Assembly: GCA_019359715.1 (NCBI GenBank)
Contig: JAHHGS010000088.1
Span: 1-55,432, forward strand
DNA: 55,432 nt
From: Aphanocapsa sp. GSE-SYN-MK-11-07L
GTDB lineage: Bacteria; Cyanobacteriota; Cyanobacteriia; Thermosynechococcales; Thermosynechococcaceae
Reading direction: 5' to 3'
Positions 1 through 2,860 of the stretch are shown here, piece by piece. The notes under the pieces were generated by a model. That model made no database searches, was not told where the DNA came from, and saw nothing but the letters and a program-made list of their open reading frames with translations. Within the stretch, counting starts at the first letter, position 1. Every line of letters starts with the position of its first letter. A program made the position numbers and the translations under genes.

Positions 1-64
1 GTCGCACCCCACACAGCCGCTTAAATGCTGCGGGGTTGAGGTCTTTAACATCGTTGTAGGTCAT
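1..64 (-). CDS. IS transposase, N-terminal fragment (runs off window)
   Basis: Only the first 21 codons are in the window, reading from ATG at 64 down to base 1. A strong AGGAGG ribosome binding site lies 8 bases upstream. The short peptide (MTYNDVKDLNP then AAFKRLCGV) resembles the N-terminal segment of cyanobacterial IS5-group (DDE_Tnp_4) transposases, which open with a 'LxxxxFKRLTGV' helix. The family call is from recall and the fragment is very short. Its position immediately inside the break in the methyltransferase gene supports a transposase. Confidence 0.5.
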   Translation of the reverse strand, partial: MTYNDVKDLNPAAFKRLCGVR

Positions 65-122
65 GAACAAATCCTCCTTTGACCTACTTTCTCCTTAATA
101 CAAATACTTTCGCAAGAGGTCT
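1..122 (-). mobile_element. End of an insertion sequence interrupting the methyltransferase gene
   Basis: On the minus strand the methyltransferase reading frame is normal down to about base 123. It then passes into unrelated sequence that starts AGACCTCTTGCGAAAG and leads within 60 bases to the transposase start. That places the element boundary at about 122/123. The other end and the target duplication are outside the window, so the terminal inverted repeat cannot be checked here. Confidence 0.5.
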
Positions 123-608
123 AATCTCTTCGGTCGGACTTAACCCTGCTTTTTCTCGAATTATGGTAGCTGAGTAATCTCGGATATCTCCAATGAGTGC
201 TATGTCTGGACGAATTGTTTTTCGGGCTGCTGGGTCAACCTCGCAGGCAAGAAGCACCTTGATTCCTTCCCTCTCTAGCCCTAGGTCTAAACCCATGCAG
301 CCAGAAAAAAAGCTTAAAGCTTTGAGGTTTGGCTTACTAAAAGACCTTCTTGCATGGTCAGGGACAGGTACACTAACATCTTCTCCCTTCCAGCGATACT
401 CGTTTACGGATTCCGATGCAACAATCCAGCGACTGCTAATCCTCTCTCCAATGATTTCACCGTATCGGAGTAGTTTGCGAACATATTGCTCTGAACAATT
501 CAATATTTCAGAGGTTTCTTTGACAGAGATGTATTGCTCAGGCACGATTTCGGACACGAAACTAAAATTAGGTACCCAGTAATAGTTAGCGGAGGATAGT
601 ATGTGCAA
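84..608 (-). pseudogene. Truncated HTH-C5 DNA cytosine methyltransferase, 5' part
   Basis: The N-terminal part (roughly residues 26-75) looks like an excisionase/MerR-type helix-turn-helix ('ISVKETSEILNCSEQYVRKL'). It is followed from about residue 96 by C5-methyltransferase motif I (LSFFSGCMGLDLGLE) and motif II (ACEVDPAA). The protein should continue to the catalytic Pro-Cys-Gln motif IV. Instead, after 'GLSPTEEI' it changes to 'RPLAKVFVLRRK' and stops, which is where the insertion sequence begins. Without motifs IV to X it cannot methylate DNA. The longest frame starts at TTG 608; GTG at 557 or 545 is also possible. Target sequence unknown. Confidence 0.75.
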
Positions 609-656: not shown

Positions 657-1688
657 CTAACTGCGTTCTAAGCGACGGCTGAGTTGCGACATTGTGAAAC
701 AGAATATCCAGTAGAGCAGACCAATAAACACGTAGGCTTCGGCATAGCGACCAAAAAACTGCGGTTGGGCCAAGATGGAGCGCGTCATGCCCGTTAGTTC
801 TAAGAGGGCAAATAGAGAGAGCAGTGACGTGTCTTTGAACAAAGAAATGAACTGACCGACGATCGCTGGTGTCACCGTGCGGAGAGCTTGCGGTAGCACA
901 ACAAGCGCTAAGGTGAGAGGTACATTCAAGCCCAGCGCTTTGGCAGCTTCAACCTGCCCTTTTGGAATCGATTGCAGCCCGCCGCGCACATTTTCGGCCA
1001 GGTAAGCAGCGTTGAATAAAACTAGCCCGGCGATCGCCCGCAGCAGCCGATCTAAACGCCATTCCCCTGGTAGCACTAGCGGCAGCATCACCTGAGCCAT
1101 GAATAAAATTCCAATTAGGGGCAAGCCGCGCATAATTTCGATGTAAGCCGTCGCAAAGCCGCGCAGAATCGGCAGCTCACTCTTGCGCCCCAAGGCCAGC
1201 AGCACCCCCAACGGAAAGGCCAAAAAGATACTGACTGAAGCCAGCAGCAAGGTCAACAGCAACCCATTCCAAAGGTTGTTATTGACTATCGGCAATCCCA
1301 GCCCACCCCCAATCAGCCAAAGTACGAGTAAAAATGAGACGGGCAGCAGGTAGAGGGTCAGGGTAAACACGCTGATCGGTTTCTGTTTAGCTTTTATCCC
1401 GTACCAAGTTAGCCCACCGCCAAGGCCCAAAATTAGGGCTAAAACAACCCACAGCCGCCAATACTGCTGGGGCGGGTAGCGCCCCACCAACAAGCGAGAG
1501 AAATTTTGCTGCACGATCGCCCACTCAGCCTTAACGAATAGCCAATCCAAAACCTGCCAGCCCGCATACAAGACCACCCACAAGCAAACTAGGGTGAACA
1601 GGCTGCTCAGCCAAGAATCAAACAGATTGCGCTTTAACCAGTGCCAGACGGTTGAAGTTGAGGCTAACTCAGGCGGTTTGGAAGTCAT
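657..1688 (-). CDS. natH: Polar amino-acid ABC transporter permease (BztC/AapM/NatH type)
   Basis: Inner-membrane permease of a polar amino-acid ABC importer, 343 residues, with several extra N-terminal membrane segments as in BztC/AapM proteins. The EAA loop that contacts the ATPase is visible near residue 240 (GGLQSIPKGQVEAAKALGL). The MRGLPLIGILF stretch before it is also typical of this family. It lies 3 bases after the companion permease, so the two are co-transcribed and probably form a heterodimer. The binding protein and ATPase expected for a NatFGH-BgtA type system are not in the window. The symbol follows cyanobacterial usage by analogy. Confidence 0.8.
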   Translation of the reverse strand: MTSKPPELASTSTVWHWLKRNLFDSWLSSLFTLVCLWVVLYAGWQVLDWLFVKAEWAIVQQNFSRLLVGRYPPQQYWRLWVVLALILGLGGGLTWYGIKAKQKPISVFTLTLYLLPVSFLLVLWLIGGGLGLPIVNNNLWNGLLLTLLLASVSIFLAFPLGVLLALGRKSELPILRGFATAYIEIMRGLPLIGILFMAQVMLPLVLPGEWRLDRLLRAIAGLVLFNAAYLAENVRGGLQSIPKGQVEAAKALGLNVPLTLALVVLPQALRTVTPAIVGQFISLFKDTSLLSLFALLELTGMTRSILAQPQFFGRYAEAYVFIGLLYWIFCFTMSQLSRRLERS

Positions 1689-1691
1689 GGG

Positions 1692-2642
1692 TTAGCGCTC
1701 CACCAGTTGGACACTGCGATTGTAGAAGTTGAGCAACAGAGAAATCACCAGACTGATCAGCAGATAGCTGCTCATAATCAAAATCATCACTTCTACCGCT
1801 CGCCCGGTTTGGTTATAAGTTGTAGAGGCAATCGCATACAGATCGGGATAGCCGACCGCGAGCGCCAAGCTAGAATTTTTGGCCAAGTTGAGATACTGGT
1901 TGCCCAAGGGCGGCACAATCGACCGCAGCGCTTGGGGCAAAATTACTAACCAGAGGACAAGGGCTGGTTTTAAACCCAGCGATCGAGCTGCTTCCGACTG
2001 TCCCCTGGGCACAGACTGAATGCCAGCCCGAACAATTTCGGCAATGAACGTGCCGGTGTAAAACGTTAGCCCCAACAGCAGGGCCGAAAACTCTGGCGAA
2101 AGTTGCAGCCCCCCCGGCAGCGTAATTCCAGCATTACTGATCGAAATTCCGGCTAAATTAATCTCACCCTCTTTGGGCAAACTCAAGAAAACCGCAAAGT
2201 ACCAAAAGAACAATTGCAGCAGTAATGGCGTATTCCGCAGTATTTCAACATAAACCATGGCCAGTTGCCGCAGCAGCCAGTTTCGCGATAGGCGGGCAAT
2301 TCCGGCTGCCAGACCGACCGCAGTGGCTAGCCCGATGCCAAACACAATTACTCGCAGCGAGTTGACTAAGCCGACAAACAGGGCCCGCCAATAGCTGTAG
2401 GTGGGCTGATAGGCGATCGGGGTTTCGCCAATCCCAAATCCGGCTTGAAACTTGAGAAAGTCAAACCCTGGTTCTAGACCTAACCGCTGCAAATTACGGG
2501 TGAGATTGCTCCAGAGCAAGAACAAAATTAGCCCCACCACTGCCACAGCCAATCCCTGCCCTGCCCACTGCCAGAACCGAGCATCCCGCCAGAGGGCAAC
2601 TCTAGAAGTTGAAGGTGTAGATCTAGCCGATCTAGACGTCAT
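1692..2642 (-). CDS. natG: Polar amino-acid ABC transporter permease (BztB/AapQ/NatG type)
   Basis: Partner permease of the next gene. A hydrophobic helix near residues 25-45 is followed by a periplasmic segment and a HisM-like permease domain. Family motifs are ILRNTPLLLQLFF and the EAA loop AGIQSVPRGQSEAARSLGL. I chose ATG at 2642, which has GGAG about 9 bases upstream, over an in-frame TTG at 2651. The gene is divergent from carB, and the roughly 200-base gap probably holds both promoters. Specificity for acidic or neutral polar amino acids is inferred from the family only. Confidence 0.8.
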   Translation of the reverse strand: MTSRSARSTPSTSRVALWRDARFWQWAGQGLAVAVVGLILFLLWSNLTRNLQRLGLEPGFDFLKFQAGFGIGETPIAYQPTYSYWRALFVGLVNSLRVIVFGIGLATAVGLAAGIARLSRNWLLRQLAMVYVEILRNTPLLLQLFFWYFAVFLSLPKEGEINLAGISISNAGITLPGGLQLSPEFSALLLGLTFYTGTFIAEIVRAGIQSVPRGQSEAARSLGLKPALVLWLVILPQALRSIVPPLGNQYLNLAKNSSLALAVGYPDLYAIASTTYNQTGRAVEVMILIMSSYLLISLVISLLLNFYNRSVQLVER

Positions 2643-2860
2643 CTTGGGCAACTCCAGTTAAAACTCAACTATCGCACCTCTTTTGATCGGTTCGGTATAG
2701 AAGCAACGTTACCTGATTTGGATTGCCCCTCTGGCTTGTCTGCCTTTTCCGCTTCTGCTTTCTAAATCTCTAAATGCAGTATCGGCAACAATGTTTTACC
2801 ATGCTACGGTTTAGGATTAAAACGCTGCCTACCCGTCCTTCTTTAATTCGTAGTCTTCCT

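Follow-up and report, generated by a model that had tools for sequence, protein, structure and literature searches.

We believe that this cyanobacterium once had a Type II restriction-modification system for GGWCC, of the AvaII/SinI type, and that the beginning of this contig holds what is left of its modification gene, now dead; we regard this as the probable explanation of the data. The host is placed among the cyanobacteria by the names of the relatives and by how abundant HIP1 is. The window, meaning the whole stretch of DNA analysed, is an entire contig (C88) of 55,432 bases whose base 1 is the contig end; the genome is 5.1 Mb in 159 contigs and is 99.48% complete. Since neither an AvaII/SinI-type endonuclease nor the C-terminal half of the methyltransferase was found in this assembly, the remnant points to a system that was lost recently. 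The event is an ordinary insertion sequence knock-out with a strong genomic ghost of restriction. The known kinds of thing that it represents are a decayed restriction-modification system and a restriction ghost.

The remnant gene and the insertion sequence

The features of the window that matter to the argument are as follows.

1..121, minus strand: left end of an insertion sequence of IS5-family type, cut by the contig end; AGGAGG at 78-73 and the transposase start codon ATG at 64-62; typed from a related element
122..123, no strand: TA adjoining the end of the element, taken to be the target dinucleotide
124..545, minus strand: 5' remnant of an HTH_17 - m5C methyltransferase gene with a probable GTG start at 545; motif I retained, PCQ motif and all later parts gone
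171..323, minus strand: start of the DNA_methylase domain PF00145, residues 96-146 of the 608-84 reading frame, profile positions 2-54 of 324 only
212..213, minus strand: point between motifs II and III where three codons are deleted in frame, unique to the window (0 of 34 other aligned rows)
387..533, minus strand: HTH_17 DNA-binding domain, residues 26-74 of the 608-84 reading frame, profile match 3.4e-6
548..577, minus strand: conserved upstream element GGGTACCTAATTTTAGTTTCG-TGTC-CGAAA, 30 bases, with the inverted repeat TTTCG/CGAAA, directly before the start codon
579..608, minus strand: predicted methyltransferase promoter, TTGCAC at 608-603, 18 bases, TATTAC at 584-579

The minus-strand reading frame spans 608-84, and its part from 545 to 124 codes for roughly 140 residues at the N-terminus of an m5C methyltransferase, with the HTH_17 domain and motif I. 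The initial annotation held that an insertion sequence cuts a cytosine methyltransferase before its PCQ motif while motif I is kept, and our results bear this out. Membership in PF00145 is given by the SAM-binding motif I start. Homology to full-length relatives ceases at base 123-124, the catalytic PCQ and the later motifs are absent, and what follows is the left end of the element. As its sequence reads, 124..545 is a remnant that would make no working m5C methyltransferase. The true start is probably the GTG at 545, where most relatives among the aligned loci have ATG, and we infer that the TTG at 608, which opens the reading frame, is the first base of the predicted -35 box. Two amino-acid-type ABC permease genes (window 657-2651) terminate a short way upstream of the remnant; at the fetched related methyltransferase loci no counterpart of 45% identity or more was found for either.

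The three-codon deletion accounts for the only departures of the window at 76 conserved columns (two gap positions), and an intact copy (L056) departs at 4 of 75. We considered relaxed selection acting through substitutions in the remnant and rejected it because there are none at these columns besides the gap. This disfavours a long decay, and the loss of the gene looks recent.

The 18-base terminus of the element, TAGACCTCTTGCGAAAGT, occurs exactly seven times in the genome, and at each occurrence the contig ends 122-127 bases into the element. Over 121-122 bases six of these left ends do not differ at all, and the seventh has 93% identity, so that the window's own copy (123-1) is matched exactly over this length at five other contig ends and at 93% at a sixth. 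The right end is a variant of the terminus and stands at five contig starts. These are inverted termini on a repeated element, and all twelve ends found, seven left and five right, adjoin TA. Two contigs, C101 and C79, resemble the two sides of one insertion whose flanks, by eye, rejoin in frame when one TA is kept, and TA therefore behaves as a target duplication. For the insertion in the window TA is seen on the visible side, and the contig ends before the other side.

The genome also carries two related elements of 921 bases (C6 and C80) whose ends differ by one base. The one on C6 has overlapping reading frames with HTH_Tnp_4 and DDE_Tnp_4 and appears to be of IS5-family type; the window copy, which holds only the first transposase codons, is typed through this relative. 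The likeness to the IS5 family (presumably the IS427 group) consists in this pair of overlapping frames in the related element, the inverted ends and the TA target, but unlike the full elements of the family the copy at the window's end is only 121 bases long. The initial annotation had read a transposase start at 64, and AGGAGG-N8-ATG does stand at 78-62. Two short elements elsewhere (L114:1501-1620 and C125:8042-8174, L120/L121) have ends of the TAGACCTCTTGC type facing each other with no room for a transposase, and they are MITE-like.

The initial annotation proposed to look for the rest of the methyltransferase past the other end of the element. It is not encoded in the 1.5 kb of flank next to each of the five assembled right ends. 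When a relative's C-terminal half was searched against this genome, it matched only two other m5C methyltransferases, on C129 (36%) and on C150 (30%, E = 0.09). The left ends on C14 and C44 also cut reading frames and likewise have no visible partner, so a missing half need not mean a deletion, and the missing partners are partly an assembly matter. At the junction the base after ...GAGATT is A. All 60 rows of relatives (59 distinct, all chosen for carrying GGPPCQ) have Asp as the next residue, and a normal copy should therefore not show TA at this point. Read together, the three-codon gap and the mismatch between TA and Asp suggest damage to the gene, or loss of part of it, that goes further than the insertion.

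It had also been proposed that the strain lost this methylation activity or relies on another copy. The idea of loss fits the assembly, in which no other copy of the gene was found; two other PF00145 genes are present, and neither is known to be a replacement. The methyltransferase on C129 is 27% identical to an intact relative and sits beside Mza genes, and on these grounds we reject it as a replacement. Among the matches listed, its best long one across the 57 relatives described below is 37%, and a match of 29 residues reaches 83% in G055. It forms part of a Mza-type defence operon (L186:6243-12818) of an m5C methyltransferase, MzaB (HATPase_c_3), MzaC (Z1) and MzaD (DUF4420, PD-(D/E)XK). 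The second PF00145 protein (C150, L002:505-2091) has PEC where PCQ is usual, lies among short reading frames and is possibly phage-derived.

The predicted target and the scarcity of GGWCC

A contig search gave 57 related loci in cyanobacteria and, more distantly, in other phyla. Matches occur in 18 of the 58 genomes searched, this one included. Six other genomes (G002, G003, G030, G037, G044 and G052) have matches over nearly the full query at 78-83% identity, G045 and G049 have fragments at 80-91%, and the remaining matches are weaker; none of the matches comes from another member of the genus. Most relatives of usable length have the PCQ motif. Split or truncated cyanobacterial copies of the same methyltransferase are found at L070 and at L072 (the same place as L030), so decay of this methyltransferase seems to be repeated.

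The neighbours of these relatives are what predicts the target. At 35 of the 57 loci one protein cluster lies beside the methyltransferase, usually convergent with it and touching it; seven loci have an unnamed cluster, three a TdeIII-type and two an EcoO109I-type partner, and at the other 10, several of which are cut by contig ends, none of the four clusters was seen. With one representative scanned per cluster, the 35-locus partner matches RE_SinI (4.9e-37), the TdeIII type matches RE_TdeIII (2.2e-56) and the EcoO109I type matches RE_EcoO109I (2.3e-85). TdeIII and EcoO109I recognise GGNCC-type sites. The unnamed second partner has no Pfam or NCBIfam match, and its best match in the PDB is at chance level (E 0.51). 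The RE_SinI-type partner also matches the solved chain of AvaII (PDB 6g3b/6s48/6s58, 2.1e-28), an enzyme that cuts G^GWCC (excerpt of PMC7337904). Because the methyltransferase in its relatives usually stands beside an AvaII/SinI-type endonuclease, we predict from sequence that its target is GGWCC.

The comparison with known GGWCC systems of this type, such as AvaII of Anabaena variabilis, is therefore a close one in some respects: the commonest partner in the relatives matches both Pfam RE_SinI and the solved AvaII sequence, the methyltransferase is an m5C enzyme with a predicted GGWCC target, and full-length copies exist in many cyanobacteria. It differs in that only the first part of the methylase is present here and the assembly has no such endonuclease, and the likeness drawn here is that of the partner endonuclease. 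The search of this genome covered the SinI/AvaII and second partner types; it gave no match to the RE_SinI/AvaII type even at E = 10 and none to the second type at E <= 0.001. The same queries found the RE_SinI type in 7 of the 58 genomes (two of the seven, G030 and G045, flagged with an internal stop codon) and the second type in one.

The predicted target is nearly absent from the DNA. A maximal-order Markov model predicts 53.9 GGWCC for the 55 kb window, which has a single one; CCWGG occurs 144 times. A sample of 455,432 bases, made up of the window and 20 stretches of 20 kb (L131-L150) and covering about 9% of the genome, has 32 GGWCC against 490.3 expected, with 12 GGTCC against 235.9 and 20 GGACC against 254.4. 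These two words have the lowest observed/expected ratios of all 1024 5-mers, and the next lowest ratio is 0.57. Counted over the whole genome, AGGWCCR has 78 occurrences and the reversed control pattern 3043, a ratio of 0.026 that is the third lowest of the 58 genomes.

Genomes with a RE_SinI-type endonuclease (n=7) have ratios of 0.031-0.127 with a median of 0.041, against a median of 0.468 in the negatives (n=49; G047, a carrier of the second partner type, has the lowest of all ratios at 0.017 and is not counted here); the Mann-Whitney p of 1.5e-5 ignores relatedness. Eight of the 49 negatives (G009, G057, G055, G032, G035, G008, G056 and G010) nevertheless have ratios of 0.13 or less, so GGWCC depletion is not specific to the SinI/AvaII-type endonuclease, and these eight may have other GGWCC systems or be ghosts. 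We consider G009 (ratio 0.021) a probable second restriction ghost. It carries a scrap of 39 residues of the same methyltransferase (L193:7149-7265), and neither partner endonuclease type was found in it, including in the 14 kb around the scrap.

GGWCC is not the sole avoided site either, since several six-base palindromes are also strongly depleted in the sample from this genome: CTCGAG (2 against 70.3), GTCGAC (4 against 79.4), CAGCTG, GAGCTC, CTGCAG, TTCGAA and GGCGCC, suggesting several past or present restriction-modification systems. Systems that have been lost are known to leave site avoidance behind as a trace (Rusinov et al. 2015; excerpt of PMC4687349). The present case resembles those traces, in what that excerpt describes, in its strong avoidance of a Type II site by a genome in which the system is not found, and it differs in that the broken gene is still beside the trace.

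The element upstream of the gene

The 30-base element at 577-548 is conserved at about 1.25-1.4 bits per column against 0.33 upstream of it (41 distinct cyanobacterial rows, window included). Allowing at most one mismatch, the pattern GGGTACYTARTTTTAGTTTCG has a single match per genome in 31 of the 388 genomes that represent the class, and the reversed control gave one match (G101). In 30 of the 30 loci returned, out of the 31, the N-terminus of the methyltransferase follows right after the element. TTTCG-N4-CGAAA occurs once in the window and not at all in a 400 kb sample. The same order of elements, with an imperfect or weaker repeat, is seen in the alphaproteobacterium Robiginitomaculum (L067-L069), and two Bacteroidetes loci (L066 and L082) have GGTACC after the repeat, L082 also having GGTACT before it. 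By a loose match the element stands beside all four kinds of partner endonuclease, most weakly for the TdeIII type (one of three). We rejected the idea that it is coding sequence because, by eye, its distance from CGAAA to the start codon varies in steps not divisible by three.

The promoter next to it was predicted from the sigma-70 consensus, and by eye many relatives have TTGCAA-like and TA-rich hexamers at about the same place. Repression of its own gene by a methyltransferase with an N-terminal HTH has precedents (excerpt of PMC3874152), which makes the role of an operator likely, and we read the element as a probable operator through which the HTH domain regulates its own gene. Like M.SsoII, M.Ecl18kI and M.ScrFI, which are self-repressing, this protein has an N-terminal HTH fused to an m5C methyltransferase, and an inverted repeat lies beside the predicted promoter; unlike in them, the HTH matches HTH_17/excisionase profiles; the likeness drawn here is one of layout. 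The titles and abstract openings listed from open-licence papers gave no description of the operator or of GGWCC depletion in cyanobacteria.

A different conserved stretch, of the TACAAT..TGGAC type, lies upstream of the endonuclease gene in relatives such as L036 and L039; a loose pattern picks it up in 14 of 35 rows. An inverted repeat of the TCTGGACAT...ATGTCCAGA kind precedes the endonuclease start in 6 of 35 rows. These may mark a second regulatory site.

Competing explanations and what the loss would mean

The initial annotation raised the possibility that the methylase targets a HIP1-related site, and the abundance of such sites (76 GCGATCGC in the window) speaks for it. We find it hardly credible. 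The partner endonucleases that were identified are of the RE_SinI, TdeIII and EcoO109I types, in other words GGWCC and GGNCC enzymes, the commonest being RE_SinI/AvaII-like, and it is GGWCC and not CGATCG that is depleted. CGATCG is over-represented, which by itself would be compatible with an orphan methylase. The CGATCG m5C methyltransferases form a group that excludes AvaII, in the excerpt of PMC4390886. An assembly artefact that wrongly joined the end of the element to the methyltransferase is very improbable too. The contig does terminate within a repeat, but seven different flanks are all joined at the same base beside TA, and those of C101 and C79 rejoin in frame.

Two other explanations deserve more weight, and we still consider each of them unlikely. 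The system may only be interrupted, with the endonuclease gene and the missing part of the methyltransferase on an unassembled contig between this copy of the element and another repeat. The excess of left over right ends, the unpartnered C14 and C44 and the number of contigs all leave room for this. The high completeness of the assembly and the failure to find either the endonuclease or the 3' half in it speak against it, as does the expectation that an active endonuclease would kill the cell once its methylase was gone; the deletion and the TA junction that does not fit the invariant Asp suggest prior damage or an adjacent deletion. Alternatively, the depletion of GGWCC could come from another system, such as Mza on C129 or a GGWCC type beyond the two searched, and have nothing to do with the remnant. 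That eight negatives are depleted as well is in its favor. However, no partner endonuclease of the SinI/AvaII or second type was found in this genome, it has only two other PF00145 genes, one of them with the Mza genes, and the depleted site is the predicted target of this gene's commonest partner.

We therefore return to the loss of a GGWCC system as the better explanation. The intact system would have cut unmethylated GGWCC long enough to purge the site, and the HTH domain of the methyltransferase would have repressed its own promoter at the TTTCG-N4-CGAAA element. Since the loss of modification alone should be lethal, the endonuclease would have been lost first or together with the methyltransferase. 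The insertion, possibly with an adjacent deletion, would then have ended the gene recently. A bolder idea, which we hold only tentatively and think somewhat less likely than not to survive, is that the HTH-methyltransferase makes up, together with its 30-base element, a compact and mobile unit of regulation in which one protein modifies GGWCC-like sites and reads an operator that is unique in the genome.

The predicted target of this methyltransferase shifts from HIP1 to GGWCC, and this offers an explanation for a striking gap in the word use of the genome. Here a broken restriction-modification gene can be observed alongside the footprint that it probably left in the genome. The strongly conserved upstream element is a candidate operator, open to direct testing, for a whole family of such methyltransferases. 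If this explanation is true, genomes with a freshly broken unit in which GGWCC is still nearly absent would give the timing of how purged sites recover after restriction is lost.
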